A program made the position numbers and the translations under genes. Under the pieces are notes generated by a model, which had not been told where the DNA came from, ran no database searches, and saw only the letters and a program-made list of their open reading frames with translations. From Aliarcobacter sp. (GTDB lineage: Bacteria; Campylobacterota; Campylobacteria; Campylobacterales; Arcobacteraceae), in NCBI GenBank assembly GCA_028703945.1, contig JAQVLW010000006.1, positions 30,067-75,266 of the forward strand: a stretch of DNA of 45,200 nt. The letters run 5' to 3'. Below are positions 24,552-30,154 of the stretch, piece after piece (the stretch's first letter is position 1; each line of letters starts with the position of its first letter).

Positions 24552-24586
24552 AATAAAATCTTTTCTATTATAGAGAAGATTTTATT
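24552..24586. terminator. Terminator between macB permease and ankyrin gene
   Basis: 15-bp stem: left arm 24552-24566 (AATAAAATCTTTTCT), loop ATTAT, right arm 24572-24586 (AGAGAAGATTTTATT), with one G-U pair and A/T runs on both flanks. It serves the convergent genes; the ankyrin gene stop codon lies in the right arm. Confidence 0.8.
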
Positions 24587-25100
24587 TTGATTGAAGTAAA
24601 TTAAATTTCTGGATTAGATACTCAATTTTTAGATTATGCGCGAGATTTAATGCACTGTTCCCTAAAAAATCCTCATGAAGAAAGTTTGCCCCATTATCAA
24701 TTAAGTAATTTATACTATTTAATTTATTATATAAAACTGCATAAATAATGGGAGTAGAGTTTATATCATCTATTTCATTTAGGTTTACACCACAATTTCT
24801 AAGGCATTTTATAACTTTTACATTATCCTTATAAACAGCATAATTAATTGCTGATAAATTAGGTGAAACTTCTGTACTAATATTTAGGCGCATTAATTTT
24901 TCTATTGAAGAAATATTTCCTTTGTTTATTGCCCAAAATAAAGCATTTCTTCCTCTAAAATCTTTTGTATTTACATCAATAACTTTAAGAGATAATACTT
25001 CAAATAAAGTATCCCACTTATCTTCATTTATTAAAGTAAAAAAGATTTTATTTAACAGCTGTTCCTCTATATTGTTATTTAAAAAGATATTATTAGACAT
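24582..25100 (-). CDS. Ankyrin-repeat protein
   Basis: A 172-aa cytoplasmic protein with about four ankyrin-like repeats. The clearest are DFRGRNALFWAINKGNISSIEKLM, LSAINYAVYKDNVKVIKCLRNCGVNLN, NSTPIIYAVLYNKLNSINYLIDNGAN and FLGNSALNLAHNLKIEYLI. There is no signal peptide. Partners and function are unknown. AGGAG precedes ATG 25100, and an 11/12 Fur-like box lies 17-29 nt upstream. The position beside iron genes suggests iron-responsive expression. Confidence 0.82.
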   Translation of the reverse strand: MSNNIFLNNNIEEQLLNKIFFTLINEDKWDTLFEVLSLKVIDVNTKDFRGRNALFWAINKGNISSIEKLMRLNISTEVSPNLSAINYAVYKDNVKVIKCLRNCGVNLNEIDDINSTPIIYAVLYNKLNSINYLIDNGANFLHEDFLGNSALNLAHNLKIEYLIQKFNLLQSK

Positions 25101-25162: not shown

Positions 25163-25375
25163 TTAGTCTATTTGAGGTTTTATTTTTTTAGATTTTTTTG
25201 GTTGATATAACATATGATGCCAAAGTGCAAAGCCACAAAATGCAACACCTGCAACAACATGAACTTTTTTAGCAACGCTATTTTTCATAAACATAGAAGT
25301 TACAACAGTAGCACCAAGTGTTGCTGTCATTCCAATTTTTGCAGTTTCTTTTTGCAGTTCTAAATCAAATTTCAT
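25163..25375 (-). CDS. Small two-helix membrane protein, unknown function
   Basis: A 70-aa protein: amphipathic start (MKFDLELQKETAKIG), a first helix (MTATLGATVVTSMFM, about 16-30), a second helix with several His residues (KKVHVVAGVAFCGFALWHHML, about 37-57) and a very basic tail (PKKSKKIKP). The paired His residues on a membrane helix could bind heme or metal; this is speculation. The start ATG 25375 overlaps the end of the 38-aa reading frame, so the two are translated together. It lies downstream of the P1B ATPase operon, behind its own Fur-like boxes. Confidence 0.72.
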   Translation of the reverse strand: MKFDLELQKETAKIGMTATLGATVVTSMFMKNSVAKKVHVVAGVAFCGFALWHHMLYQPKKSKKIKPQID

Positions 25376-25557: not shown

Positions 25558-27669
25558 CTATCTTATATTAACACCTTTAATTGAATTAAACAATAATCCA
25601 ATAGTAGTTCCATTATGTAAAACAGCTGTTACTATTGGAGAAAACACTCCAAATGTTGCACCTGCAAGGATACAAGAGTTTATTCCAACGGTTGCATTAA
25701 AGTTATTGTTAATCAAATTCATTGTTTTATTAGCATACTCTTTTGCTTCGACAACAGCCATAATATCATCTTTTAACAATGAAATATCAGCCGTTGCTTT
25801 TGCAATATCTGCACCTCTGCTCATTGAAATACCAACATGAGCTGATATAAGTGCTGGTGCATCATTAATTCCATCACCTACAAAAGCCACTTTTTTGCCT
25901 TCATTCATTAGCTCTTTTACTATTCTTGCTTTATCTTGGGGTAAAAGTTCTGCTCTTACTTCATTTATTCCTAATTCATCAGCTATCATTTTTGCTTTTT
26001 GTTTTGTATCACCTGTTAGCATAATGATATTTTTTACGCCTAATTTTTTTAGTTTTGAAATGGCTTCTTTTGAATTGTGTCTTAACTCGTCGGCTAAAGT
26101 AATAGTTCCTAAAAGTTTTCCGTTATAAGCTATATAAAGTAAAGTTCTTCCATCTCTTAAAGAATTTTCAATTTTATCTTTATGTTCAGTGAAATCAATC
26201 TTTTCATCATCTTCTAAAAAGTGGCGACTTCCAATAATTACAGATTTTCCTTTTACTTCTGTTTTTACTCCATGTGCCACTATAAATTCAACTTCTTCAT
26301 GGTGCATGTGAACAAAACCTCTTTGTTTTGCTGCTTTTACAACAGCTTCTGCAACAGGATGAAAATAGTGTTCTTCAGTTGATGCAGTAAGATTTAAGAG
26401 TTCATCTTCACTCCATTTATCATCATAAGATTCCACACAAATTACTTCTAACTCTCCAGCTGTTAAAGTTCCTGTTTTATCAAAAACAAAAGTATCAGCA
26501 TTACTCAAAGCTTCAATTGATTTTGCACCTTTTATCATAATTCCATTATGACCAGCTTTTGAAATAGTAGATTTAAAAGCAACAGGAGTTGCAAGTTTTA
26601 AAGCACAAGAATAATCAGCTTGTAAAATAGAAGCTACTCTTTCAAAATCTTTTGCAAAAATATATGAAATGGTTGCAAGTCCCAAAGTTACTGGAACTAA
26701 TTTATTTGCTAGTTTATTTGCTTTTAATTGAACAGATGATTTTTCATTTAAAGAGTTTTCAATATAGTGTTTTATTCTTTGAGTTGCTGTGTTTGCTCCA
26801 ACATTTTCAGCCCAAATCCTAAATCTTCCTTCTTCTACAATTGTTCCTGAAATTACTCTATCACCTCTATATCTTATTATTGGTTCAGCTTCTCCTGTCA
26901 TTGAAACTTGATTTACGCTTCCCGTTCCCTCAACAATATGTCCATCCACAGGAATCGTATTTCCAATTCCAACTACTACAATATCACCAATTTCAATATT
27001 TTTACTTTTTACTAAGATTTCAGTGATTTTTCCATTTATTTTTTTTTCTATCCAAGCTTCTTCAACATTTGGTTTTGAAAGTTCTTTTAATAAATCATCA
27101 CTTTTGTGAACAGTTGTTTCTTCAATATATTCACCAAGTTCAAGCATTGCATTTGTAGAGTTTGCAGCTAGATAATCTTTTCTATAAATAGAAATTGCAA
27201 CAGCTGCACTTTCTAAAACTTTTGAAGTTAATCCTTCTTTTAATAACTCTTTTGAACCTTCAATTAACAATGGAATTGATGCACCTGTTGTAATTCCTGC
27301 TTTTAATAAATCATTTGTTATAAATCTTTCAGCAATTAACGCACTGGTTGCTCTAACCATTCCATTTATTGATGGTTCTTTACTTCCAACGCAAGATATA
27401 CAAACAGCTGCAACATCGTCTTCGCAAGATTTTAATAAATCTTCAATAGTAAGTTTGTTTAAAATCTCTTCTATTTGTATACTTATATCTTTATGTAATT
27501 CAAAAATAATGCTAAATGCTTTTTTATTTATTCGTACACTTTTTATATCTTTTATTTTTTCAAAATAGTTTTTTAAGATATTTTCATCTATAAATTCATC
27601 TTTTAGTAAAAAATATTTGTATCTAGATCTTAGATTAGTTTGATGTACTTTAATAAATTTTTTATTCAT
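25558..27669 (-). CDS. fezB: P1B-type metal-transporting ATPase, FezB (ferrosome)-like
   Basis: A 703-aa P-type ATPase, last gene of a compact six-gene operon. It has the phosphorylation site Asp397 (FDKTGTLTAG), A-domain TGEAEP, the N-domain HP motif (HYFHPVAEAVV) and P-domain MLTGDTK and GDGINDAPAL. The membrane metal site reads SCALKLATP (Cys355) instead of CPC or SPC, the pattern I associate with the P1B-6 group that includes FezB, an iron transporter of ferrosome membranes. The N-terminal about 80 residues look like a degenerate HMA fold without CxxC; a CISC motif follows near residue 90. It starts 2 nt after the previous stop. The transported ion (Fe2+) is inferred from class and context. 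Confidence 0.8.
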   Translation of the reverse strand: MNKKFIKVHQTNLRSRYKYFLLKDEFIDENILKNYFEKIKDIKSVRINKKAFSIIFELHKDISIQIEEILNKLTIEDLLKSCEDDVAAVCISCVGSKEPSINGMVRATSALIAERFITNDLLKAGITTGASIPLLIEGSKELLKEGLTSKVLESAAVAISIYRKDYLAANSTNAMLELGEYIEETTVHKSDDLLKELSKPNVEEAWIEKKINGKITEILVKSKNIEIGDIVVVGIGNTIPVDGHIVEGTGSVNQVSMTGEAEPIIRYRGDRVISGTIVEEGRFRIWAENVGANTATQRIKHYIENSLNEKSSVQLKANKLANKLVPVTLGLATISYIFAKDFERVASILQADYSCALKLATPVAFKSTISKAGHNGIMIKGAKSIEALSNADTFVFDKTGTLTAGELEVICVESYDDKWSEDELLNLTASTEEHYFHPVAEAVVKAAKQRGFVHMHHEEVEFIVAHGVKTEVKGKSVIIGSRHFLEDDEKIDFTEHKDKIENSLRDGRTLLYIAYNGKLLGTITLADELRHNSKEAISKLKKLGVKNIIMLTGDTKQKAKMIADELGINEVRAELLPQDKARIVKELMNEGKKVAFVGDGINDAPALISAHVGISMSRGADIAKATADISLLKDDIMAVVEAKEYANKTMNLINNNFNATVGINSCILAGATFGVFSPIVTAVLHNGTTIGLLFNSIKGVNIR

Positions 27670-27671
27670 AA

Positions 27672-28028
27672 TTACTGTTCTTGATTAGCTTGCATTTGAG
27701 CTTTTGTATCTTCATATCTCTCTTTTAGCTCTTCAATTCCAGCACTAAAAAGTTCACTTCCTTTTCCAAAAGCTTTAAAAAGAGTATCTTGTGCATTTTT
27801 ATTTGTAAGAAGATAAGTAACTGCAGCTCCTAATAATGCTCCTTTTATAAAATCACCACTTGTAAAAGTGCTTTGTGTTGGAATAGTTCCTTGTTGTGAA
27901 TTTTGTAAAGGATTAAAGTTTTGATTAATATAAGGATTTTGATTTATATTAACACCTGATTGGTTATTCTTTGGTCTACTATTTTCAATATTTATATCAT
28001 ATTGAGCTGGTTGATTTTGATTATTCAT
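27672..28028 (-). CDS. Asn/Gln-rich protein with glycine-zipper membrane helix
   Basis: A 118-aa protein (ATG 28028, MNNQNQPAQYDI). The first about 55 residues are low-complexity, rich in Asn, Gln and Pro. A membrane helix with a glycine zipper follows (FIKGALLGAAVTYLLTN, about 66-82), then an amphipathic Glu/Lys-rich tail (ELFSAGIEELKERYEDTKAQ). A frame extension to 28055 exists, but the internal ATG gives the normal 8-nt overlap with the upstream gene. The function is unrecognised. By position it is a candidate structural protein of the iron compartment, with the N/Q-rich arm perhaps a scaffold or interaction region. Confidence 0.72.
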   Translation of the reverse strand: MNNQNQPAQYDINIENSRPKNNQSGVNINQNPYINQNFNPLQNSQQGTIPTQSTFTSGDFIKGALLGAAVTYLLTNKNAQDTLFKAFGKGSELFSAGIEELKERYEDTKAQMQANQEQ

Positions 28029-28383
28029 AATCTTCTTCCAGTGGACAATTTTCATTTGTTAAATATTTTTGATCAAGTTTTTCTTCAATTACTTCAATAG
28101 CATATATTCCCATCATTCCGATTGATGCAGCAGTTATTGCTTTGAATAATCCACCTTTTTGACCTAAATAATTTGCAGTTGCAATTGCACTTCCTGTAAC
28201 AATAGCACCTTGAGAAGTTCTTTTAATAGTGTCTTTTATAGCATCTTTTTTTGAAATCTCTCTACTTTTTGTTTTTTTATAGTTAATTGCACCACTTATA
28301 ATTGCACTTGCAACCGCACCACTTATTACATGTCCTAATACATTTCTTGGTGTTCCTGTATTAATAGTTAAATCTTTTATCAT
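28021..28383 (-). CDS. Glycine-rich multi-helix membrane protein
   Basis: A 120-aa protein from ATG 28383 (MIKDLTINTGTPRNVLGH), overlapping the upstream stop as ATGA; the longer frame from 28443 is not needed. It has three Gly/Ala-rich hydrophobic segments: VLGHVISGAVASAIISGAI (about 15-33), TSQGAIVTGSAIATANYLG (about 56-74) and FKAITAASIGMMGIYAIEVI (about 79-98). They are separated by a Lys-rich loop, and the tail is acidic with one Cys. Such packing is reminiscent of magnetosome-type membrane proteins. No defined family is recognised; a role in the iron-storage membrane is inferred from the operon. Confidence 0.7.
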   Translation of the reverse strand: MIKDLTINTGTPRNVLGHVISGAVASAIISGAINYKKTKSREISKKDAIKDTIKRTSQGAIVTGSAIATANYLGQKGGLFKAITAASIGMMGIYAIEVIEEKLDQKYLTNENCPLEEDYE

Positions 28384-28616
28384 AATACTTCTTCCTTGAT
28401 TTTTTCTTTTTTCTTCTCTTCTACACACTCTTTTGTAGCACAAATAGTTTCTTTGATTTCGTTTACATTTTCTTTAGTTTTTTCTAAAGTAGCATTTGCA
28501 AAATCTTTTGATTTTTTAAATAATTTTGAAGTTTTTTCTTTTAAAGTATCTTTATTTTTAAAAGCAATAACAGCACCAGCACCAACAGCTAAACCTAATA
28601 TAAATGGTAAAGGCAT
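28380..28616 (-). CDS. YtxH-like small membrane protein with charged coiled tail
   Basis: A 78-aa protein with an N-terminal glycine-zipper helix (PFILGLAVGAGAVIAF, residues 4-19), then a long Lys/Glu-rich amphipathic helix, two Cys in the segment ETICATKECVEEKKK, and a charged end. It resembles YtxH-like proteins in layout only. It starts 3 nt after the ferritin-like gene stop and overlaps the next gene by 4 nt. It is probably membrane-anchored with a cytoplasmic helical arm. Confidence 0.72.
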   Translation of the reverse strand: MPLPFILGLAVGAGAVIAFKNKDTLKEKTSKLFKKSKDFANATLEKTKENVNEIKETICATKECVEEKKKEKIKEEVL

Positions 28617-28619
28617 TTT

Positions 28620-29306
28620 TTACTCCTCTTCTTCAGTAATATTTTTTTTTGAAAGGTAATTATTTAAAATTGCAATAGTAGCAGCTCCTAAAACAGCACC
28701 ACTAACCATAGATAAATTTAATTTAGAGAAAATATTAGAGATTGAACTCTCATCAATATTTCCACTCATAATATCATCTAATATAACTTGATATTCTCCT
28801 AGTTTTTCCATAATATTTTCTGGATTGATATTTGTTATACTTCCACTATTATAATGGCTTAATACAGAATTTCTAAATGCTGGTAAATGGTTATTAAAAG
28901 ATGCTGCTTGAAGTCTATAAAGAGTGTCTTTTACATCATTTTCAATTGTAAATCCTAGTAAATTGTTGTACATAGCAATATTACTTATTTCACCAGCAAC
29001 TCCTAATTCGCAACACTCTATTAAAGTATTTGGGATTTCTATTTTTGAAGCCCAATCGTTTATGGGAACTTCAACTCCATACTTTTCCATTAATTTTATA
29101 AGTGCAGCATAATGTACAGCTTCAGCTTCTTTTATATTTACAAAAGGTTGAAGTAAACCAAATCTTTCAATTATTTTTGTATAAGTTTCATAAGCTTTAA
29201 ACTCATCATAAACAGCAATTCTTAAAATTTGAGAAATTATGGGTATTTGACTATTTACATCAATTCGAGCGGATATTAATAGTGCTTCATCAATATTTGT
29301 TTCCAA
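28620..29306 (-). CDS. Membrane-anchored ferritin-like protein
   Basis: A 228-aa protein with a four-helix ferritin-like domain (about residues 15-165): helix A YDEFKAYETYTKIIERFG, helix B with an ExxH pair (EAEAVHYAALIKLMEKYG), helix C GVAGEISNIAMYNNLL and helix D QAASFNNHLPAFRNSVL. Helix D keeps His, but the expected carboxylate beside it looks replaced by Asn, so the di-metal site may be incomplete. Unlike soluble ferritins it ends with a membrane helix (MVSGAVLGAATIAILNNYL, about 199-217) and an acidic tail (EEEE). It is second in the six-gene operon, directly abutting the HMA-like gene. Confidence 0.75.
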   Translation of the reverse strand: METNIDEALLISARIDVNSQIPIISQILRIAVYDEFKAYETYTKIIERFGLLQPFVNIKEAEAVHYAALIKLMEKYGVEVPINDWASKIEIPNTLIECCELGVAGEISNIAMYNNLLGFTIENDVKDTLYRLQAASFNNHLPAFRNSVLSHYNSGSITNINPENIMEKLGEYQVILDDIMSGNIDESSISNIFSKLNLSMVSGAVLGAATIAILNNYLSKKNITEEEE

Positions 29307-29621
29307 TTAAATAACCTCCTTTGCAAGTCTATTTATTAATATAGATAATTCTTCTATATTTTTATTTTTAACCAAATCTTCCCAATGTGTTGGTTTGAAT
29401 ATAGTTGGCTCATAAATGATTGTAATAGATGCAATAATTTTATTTATTTTAATACTAATTATTCCATCTATTTTATTTGGTAAATTTTCAATATCACTGA
29501 TAGTTATATTCCCACCTGAATCTTTTATTTTAGGATTTACTCTAACCCTTAATCTCCCAGGTGTGTGGGCGATAATTGAAAAAAAACTAGCAATTTTTAT
29601 AATATCTTCTGTACTAATCAA
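29307..29621 (-). CDS. HMA-like (HMA2-type) small protein, first gene of ferrosome-like operon
   Basis: A 104-aa protein. After a short N-terminus it reads IIAHTPGRLRVRVNPKIKD, then about two betaalphabeta elements (ISDIENLPNKIDGIISIKINKIIASITIIYEP), matching the ferredoxin-like HMA2 fold, but without the CxxC metal site. It could be a metal-chaperone-like adaptor or a lipid/partner-binding module for the P1B ATPase, whose own N-terminus is similarly degenerate. AAGGA lies before ATG 29621. The operon promoter with a Fur-like element lies in the 80-nt gap upstream. Similarity to fez operon members is inferred. Confidence 0.72.
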   Translation of the reverse strand: MISTEDIIKIASFFSIIAHTPGRLRVRVNPKIKDSGGNITISDIENLPNKIDGIISIKINKIIASITIIYEPTIFKPTHWEDLVKNKNIEELSILINRLAKEVI

Positions 29622-29673: not shown

Positions 29674-29696
29674 ATTATAAATTAAAAATCATTATC
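29674..29696 (-). promoter_or_regulatory. Putative promoter and Fur-like element of the ferrosome-like operon
   Basis: On the minus strand a TATAAT -10 hexamer (29679-29674) is preceded by GATAATGATTTTT (29696-29684), which keeps 10 of 12 positions of the Fur core, in the -10/-35 spacer. The start codon of the first gene is about 50 nt downstream. The layout fits repression by Fur or the adjacent Fur paralogue. Confidence 0.5.
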
Positions 29697-29701
29697 AGTT
29701 T

Positions 29702-30154
29702 TTATTTTTGGCAGGTTTCACAAACCCCATAAATAGTCATAACATGTTCTTTTAAAATAAAATTATTCTTTTCAGCAATTTTCATTTGTTTTAATTCTAT
29801 TAAATTATCTGAAAATTCTATAATAATTCCGCAAGAAGTACAAATAAGATGGTCATGATGTTCAGCAATATTTAGTTCATATCTAACAACACCATCTCCA
29901 ATATCCAATTGATTTACGAGCTTTGTATCATGAAAAAATTTCATAGCACGATAGACAGTTGCGATTCCAATTGATACATTATAGTTTTGTTTGATTTTAT
30001 TTGAAATCTCATCAGCTGTTAAATGTTCTTTTGAAAAATATAAAATTTTTAATATATAATCTTTTTGAATTGAGTTTTTTAAACCTATCTTTGATACATT
30101 ATTTTTAAAGTTTCTTAAAAAAATATCAAATGATATTTCTTGATTATTTTCCAT
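29702..30154 (-). CDS. Fur-family transcriptional regulator
   Basis: A 150-aa metal-dependent repressor. The N-terminal winged helix (LKNSIQKDYILKILYFSKEHLTADEISNKI, IGIATVYRAMKFF) is followed by the dimer/metal domain with EHHDHLICTSCG and a C-terminal second Cys pair (VCETCQ), i.e. two CxxC structural zinc ligands. It could be Fur, PerR or a system-specific paralogue; sequence alone does not decide. It lies directly upstream of the ferrosome-like operon in the same direction, like dedicated regulators of such clusters. Its ATG overlaps the stop of a 47-aa reading frame (TAATG), so translation is coupled. Confidence 0.92.
   Translation of the reverse strand: MENNQEISFDIFLRNFKNNVSKIGLKNSIQKDYILKILYFSKEHLTADEISNKIKQNYNVSIGIATVYRAMKFFHDTKLVNQLDIGDGVVRYELNIAEHHDHLICTSCGIIIEFSDNLIELKQMKIAEKNNFILKEHVMTIYGVCETCQK

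Follow-up and report, generated by a model that had tools for sequence, protein, structure and literature searches.

The window analyzed here, a stretch of 45,200 nucleotides from an Aliarcobacter species, contains a run of minus-strand genes preceded by a Fur-family regulator. It includes a ferritin-like, C-terminally tagged protein at 28620..29306 (-), for which we use the working name FTL. The following features were assigned:

29702..30154, minus strand: Fur-family regulator upstream of the operon (Pfam FUR, 112 bits; found beside many fez loci)
29307..29621, minus strand: small HMA_2 domain protein, 104 aa (Pfam HMA_2, 24.9 bits, below cut-off; synteny; Azospirillum homology)
28620..29306, minus strand: FTL, 228 aa, TTG start
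28836..29249, minus strand: four-helix ferritin-like domain of FTL, residues 20-157 (model, structural matches, conservation)
28665..28721, minus strand: predicted Gly-zipper membrane segment of FTL, residues 196-214, LNLSMVSGAVLGAATIAIL (hydropathy; tag as in two neighbouring fez proteins)
28623..28664, minus strand: charged C-terminal tail of FTL, NNYLSKKNITEEEE (sequence)
28380..28616, minus strand: GZ78, 78-aa protein with an N-terminal Gly-zipper
28021..28383, minus strand: 120-aa Gly-rich two-segment protein (MamC-like profile match)
27672..28055, minus strand: GZ127, 127-aa Gly-zipper/YtxH-like protein
25558..27669, minus strand: FezB-type P1B ATPase, 703 aa, with a degenerate N-terminal HMA_2 domain (TIGR01525, 490 bits)
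25163..25375, minus strand: FezC-like DUF4405 protein, 70 aa, putative heme cytochrome (weak DUF4405 match; matches the Azospirillum HMA2-DUF4405 protein)
24582..25100, minus strand: ankyrin-repeat protein downstream of FezC (near relatives only)

After the Fur gene, the genes are arranged in the order HMA_2 protein, FTL, GZ78, 120-aa MamC-like protein, GZ127, FezB and DUF4405-like protein, and the order from the HMA_2 protein to FezB was constant in all complete loci examined. The TTG start of FTL is preceded by GCAAAGGAGGTTATTTAA. The small HMA_2 protein is encoded directly upstream of FTL in nearly all loci, and its homologue in the Azospirillum fez operon is the second gene, while FezB is 45% identical to the ATPase of that six-gene operon. 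TIGR01525 and Pfam identify FezB as a heavy-metal P1B ATPase with an N-terminal HMA_2 domain. The ankyrin-repeat protein probably lies outside the operon core. A Fur-box scan returned 23 weak matches where 15 were expected, the one near the operon start (29681-29696) being unconvincing, and promoter and terminator scans were uninformative in this AT-rich DNA. Judged from sequence, FTL is almost certainly a member of a ferrosome (fez) operon. The iron operon in which an earlier note on this DNA had placed the gene was thus borne out as a complete fez operon with FezB and FezC homologues that is kept across species.

Fez operons have reportedly been described, by Grant in 2022 and Pi in 2023, for Desulfovibrio magneticus, Rhodopseudomonas palustris, Shewanella putrefaciens and Clostridioides difficile. 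As in the window, the operons of these four species contain FezB, the DUF4405-like cytochrome FezC, HMA2 and Gly-zipper proteins. In Desulfovibrio ferrosomes, FezC is a heme cytochrome of the DUF4405-like type, and the putative iron transporter FezB is a component of ferrosomes (PMC10979944), while R. palustris ferrosomes are formed from six fez genes, RPA2333-2338 (PMC12016538). Our own comparison beyond Campylobacterota covered plasmid-borne operons only, from Azospirillum and Vibrio. The Azospirillum operon encodes an HMA2-DUF4405 protein, HMA2, two small hypothetical proteins, a YtxH-like protein and the ATPase. Sequence similarity pairs the HMA2, YtxH-like, ATPase and DUF4405 proteins of this operon with the HMA2 protein, GZ127, FezB and FezC of the window, respectively; the two small proteins correspond in position and in having Gly-rich segments, and an alignment of the fourth protein with the MamC-like family is possible. 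The FezC-like part is fused to HMA2 in the first gene in Azospirillum (L091 4076-4555) and is a separate last gene in Campylobacterota. The six other genes are thus present in Azospirillum without FTL, and the Vibrio operon likewise has the other genes and lacks FTL, which makes FTL apparently a seventh, phylum-specific gene of the Campylobacterota ferrosome operon.

Several further observations were made on the operon. The MamC profile is colinear with the 120-aa family and matched 23 of 27 members at E<0.1 (best 3e-9) and none of ten reversed sequences, the window protein itself scoring 20 bits, far below the NCBI cut-off of 100. This match suggests that membrane proteins of ferrosomes and magnetosomes share an ancestor. 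In two groups of loci (L105-L107 and L108-L110), the MamC-like gene is apparently fused to GZ127. In several lineages, another P1B ATPase is encoded just upstream of the operon, a divergent one that scores about 250-280 bits to FezB (L043-L045, L048-L051, L071-L074, L081 and L086). The operon is also carried on the 133-kb Arcobacter plasmid CP134847.1 (L094). The ATPase is annotated in two pieces on one of two similar Arcobacter plasmids, and FezB of L005 has an in-frame stop; both may reflect decay or sequencing error.

The distribution of FTL closely follows that of FezB. In the family of the window, FTL was found in 63 of 104 genomes. A FezB orthologue is present in each of these 63 and in one further genome, making 64, and in that last genome a contig end cuts the FTL gene, so that FTL would be present in 64 of 64. 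None of the 40 family genomes lacking FezB encodes FTL (Fisher p 4e-28, uncorrected for relatedness, the counts being related genomes and not independent events). Across Campylobacterota, FezB was detected in 136 of 397 sampled genomes. Outside the family, FTL accompanies FezB in 96 of 104 genomes (93 by profile and three as diverged, anchorless forms), leaving eight without it, and no tagged FTL was found in sampled Campylobacterota genomes without FezB. Profile matches in FezB-less genomes were weak, and those examined are ordinary DUF2202 proteins. In one genus (L105-L107), a diverged FTL of 146 aa keeps its operon position and has lost the ExxH residues and the tag. Based on this distribution, an anchored ferritin-like protein appears to be a standard part of the ferrosome gene set in the phylum of Campylobacter, Arcobacter and Helicobacter. 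A hybrid of ferritin and ferrosome had been proposed for this locus, and the combination is well supported because FTL is linked near-universally to FezB over the phylum; it suggests that Campylobacterota combine ferritin chemistry with membrane-enclosed iron storage. The window genome also encodes a conventional ferritin-family protein (G000:C60:10419-10826, L121; 116 bits). Since this gene occurs in a fez-bearing genome, ferrosome and ferritin stores probably coexist there.

The closest named relative of FTL, from Arcobacter caeni, is 92% identical. No NCBIfam model names FTL, the copy on an annotated Arcobacter plasmid is labelled only 'DUF2202 domain-containing protein', and no relatives were found in the viral contigs searched. 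AlphaFold modeling of eight sequences gave a four-helix core within a single chain (helices 23-49, 55-75, 95-119 and 123-154) with a core pLDDT of about 90 (block values mostly 77-96). The best Foldseek match of the model is MJ0754 of Methanocaldococcus jannaschii (DUF2202; PDB 3q4n-3q4r), a ferritin-like bundle, at E 3.5e-4. VIA-align superimposed FTL on bacterioferritins and MJ0754 with Z 16-17 and rmsd mostly 2.1-2.8 A over 132-141 residues (Z 16.6 across 141 residues for MJ0754 alone). A profile built on 25 FTL homologues found MJ0754 at E 3e-6, and Pfam DUF2202 (PF09968) matched 17 of the 25 at E<0.01 and FTL itself as a borderline pass (22.7 bits, cut-off 22). AlphaFold, Foldseek, VIA-align and Pfam thus agree with the earlier assignment of a four-helix ferritin-like domain. 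The classical Ferritin profile (PF00210) matches two other loci of the same genome and not FTL. Without a PF00210 match and with no ExxH on helix D, FTL is probably not a cage ferritin. On a methanotroph plasmid (L096 2726-6112), a soluble DUF2202 protein of 141 aa is encoded next to feoB and a gene for a cation P-type ATPase, a further tie of DUF2202 to iron transport.

The putative ligands of FTL are E35, E62, H65, E106 and H140, with N138 as an additional helix D residue. An ExxH pair had been claimed; this holds for helix B, where E62-H65 is the single true ExxH, and fails for helix D, which reads NNH (N138 N139 H140; motif S-F/Y-N-N-H). The canonical helix D carboxylate position, three residues before H140, is occupied by F/Y (137), and N138 adjoins it two residues before the histidine. 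For comparison we used the bacterioferritin register, with model residue 21 on chain residue 4. In this register, structural alignment places E35 on E18 and Y42 on Y25, and motif-based placement sets E62/H65 on E51/H54, E106 on E94 and H140 on H130. A sequence-profile alignment with E. coli Bfr was not significant, its sole aligned stretch putting E106 on E94 in agreement with the structural register. In bacterioferritin, the ligand roles of E18, E51/H54, E94, H130 and the Glu of the second ExxH are established. Five of these six are present in FTL and the helix D carboxylate is missing, as in its relatives, so that the site is at best a five-ligand variant.

Comparing the metal site with DUF2202 proteins, as had been suggested earlier, brought out a shared Glu/ExxH/Glu/His pattern. 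MJ0754 has a similar ligand set, with a helix A Glu, a helix B ExxH, a helix C Glu and a helix D His lacking the canonical carboxylate. Its helix D motif is SxNH, one residue shorter than the SxNxH of FTL and its nearest soluble relatives. Classical DUF2202 proteins of Campylobacterota have SYNH or SYSH, again with no carboxylate. All 43 of a diverse set of fez homologues have N138 and E106, whereas position 138 is D, E or N in soluble DUF2202 relatives. The earlier observation that an Asn replaces the helix D carboxylate therefore stands in that the carboxylate is absent and N138 is fixed, but the absence is not peculiar to FTL. Because the carboxylate is also missing from MJ0754 and classical DUF2202 proteins, its absence is a DUF2202 feature, fixed as Asn in FTL.

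About two thirds of the FTL diversity sampled, the window protein among them, strictly conserve all five ligand positions. E62/H65 and H140 are lost in one supported clade of eight sampled sequences (family f3, probably Campylobacteraceae), which retains E106, N138 and mostly also E35 and the Gly tag. Further losses of the ExxH site are scattered across the FTL tree, while gene order and usually the tag persist. Because several lineages lose the metal site yet keep the gene, ferroxidase activity or iron chemistry, as read from these alignments, cannot be the only role of FTL everywhere. One reading of this erosion is that FTL is a scaffold or adaptor whose bundle serves structurally, bringing in FezB and the Gly-zipper proteins or arranging them at the membrane, metal binding being vestigial. 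Lineages without the ExxH and helix D His that still conserve the Gly tag, E106, N138 and gene order are what it would predict. However, a pure scaffold needs none of the five ligands so strictly conserved elsewhere, and we consider this reading rather unlikely. Less probable again is a rubrerythrin-like di-iron protein that scavenges peroxide or O2 to shield the ferrosome membrane and FezB and does not process stored iron. The Rubrerythrin profile matches 11 of 25 FTL members (best 1.8e-6), and genes for peroxiredoxin and cytochrome bd occur near those of soluble DUF2202 relatives. We nevertheless regard it as improbable, as no rubredoxin domain or partner was recognised in the operon and FTL is linked to iron transport genes throughout the phylum.

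FTL contains one hydrophobic segment only. LNLSMVSGAVLGAATIAIL has a mean Kyte-Doolittle hydropathy of 1.85, above the usual membrane cut-off of 1.6, and any other 19-residue stretch of FTL reaches at most 1.03. Over 38 homologues, the C-terminal segment has a median of 1.7 and reaches at least 1.6 in 24, being borderline in some, whereas none of the core stretches reaches 1.6. G203 and G207 are invariant in all 38. The FTL C-terminal profile matched the N-terminal segment of GZ78 with a probability of 90% (reversed control 9%) and the central segment of GZ127 with 78% (reversed control 3%). A search of the 2812 ORFs in 48 loci with this profile recovered, beyond FTL, 16 GZ127, 10 GZ78 and one MamC-like protein at E<0.01, and no unrelated ORFs. 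Because the profile matches GZ78 and GZ127 and nothing unrelated, at least three operon proteins share one Gly-zipper tag, with FTL alone bearing it behind a ferritin-like domain. No such tag was seen in the soluble DUF2202 relatives examined. The Gly-zipper helix described earlier therefore stands as a predicted membrane segment, by its hydropathy, invariant glycines and likeness to GZ78 and GZ127, and membrane attachment of FTL is very probable.

It is far less probable that the C-terminal segment is a soluble oligomerisation helix and FTL an ordinary soluble DUF2202 protein. Apart from the borderline hydropathy of some members, this would fit the modeling, where the C-terminal part of the full model has low confidence (pLDDT about 40-60) and the region folded alone gives helices at 162-180, 186-195 and about 204-226 with no confident packing (pLDDT about 60, pTM 0.29). 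The specific similarity to the GZ78 and GZ127 segments and the invariant glycine spacing argue against it. With no evident signal peptide at the N-terminus and the tag at the C-terminus, the ferritin-like domain should face the cytosol, leaving only the short tail inside. The acidic tail noted earlier is present in the window protein (EEEE) but is not a general trait, being net negative in just 22 of 38 homologues. A mineral nucleator facing the ferrosome lumen, to which operon context and this tail had pointed, is thus highly unlikely, as the predicted topology puts the domain on the cytosolic side.

The computations directly gave the fold, ligand conservation, shared tag and fezB linkage of FTL; membrane insertion, cytosolic orientation, iron binding, oxidation and delivery to FezB we infer. 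Our preferred reading, which we hold with about even confidence, is that a DUF2202-type di-metal domain is tethered to the cytosolic ferrosome face and handles Fe(II) for FezB, in the manner of a split MbfA, and serves as a scaffold where the site has decayed. Here, a soluble DUF2202-type domain would have been joined to the Gly-zipper tag carried by other Fez proteins, which would hold it at the cytosolic side of the ferrosome membrane or, at sites of ferrosome formation, of the inner membrane. Fe(II) would most likely be bound, probably at the di-metal site E35, E62, H65, E106 and H140. FTL may then buffer or oxidise Fe(II) before passing it to FezB, a P-type ATPase, and the small HMA2 protein and the cytochrome FezC would act as partners. 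Where the ExxH has decayed, FTL would remain as membrane scaffold or adaptor.

Ferritins and ferrosomes are usually presented as alternative ways of storing iron. The linkage of FTL to fezB and the shared tag offer a concrete route for Fe(II) to FezB and a redox step before storage, and ferrosomes are predicted in Arcobacter relatives and in families resembling Helicobacteraceae and Campylobacteraceae. Lineages lacking the metal site or the anchor, or FTL altogether, represent natural controls for separating enzymatic from structural roles. A wider proposal, which we consider possible though somewhat doubtful, is that Campylobacterota ferrosomes are hybrid iron stores in which a surface-displayed ferritin-like ferroxidase loads FezB and the MamC-like protein links ferrosome and magnetosome mineral control. 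If true, this would be a third use of ferritin chemistry besides cages and encapsulin cargo, and lineages lacking site or anchor are already available in nature. Our literature search found no description of a ferritin-like ferrosome protein and no mention of DUF2202 or MJ0754. The ingredients of FTL are each known, and it is their combination, the phylum-wide linkage and the shared tag that we did not find described in the literature searched.

Among known systems, MbfA of Bradyrhizobium and Agrobacterium resembles FTL in having a non-cage, N-terminal ferritin-like domain associated with a membrane and with iron transport. This domain is cytosolic and ferroxidase-active and is needed for iron export by MbfA's own membrane domain (PMC7762939). 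In MbfA, a VIT-type transporter domain is part of the same chain, whereas FTL carries only one tag, and transport would fall to a separate P-type ATPase, FezB. Pfam gave no VIT match in FTL, which was rejected as an MbfA member for lack of a C-terminal VIT/CCC1 transporter domain. EncFtn was likewise rejected, its similarity to FTL being weak (E 0.057 over a short stretch). The encapsulated ferritins EncFtn and IMEF, non-cage ferritin-like ferroxidases attached to a separate storage compartment (PMC7762939), are comparable to the arrangement proposed for FTL. In their case, the compartment is a protein shell (encapsulin) and most EncFtn protomers have two helices, while the predicted compartment of FTL is bounded by a membrane and its domain is a four-helix bundle.
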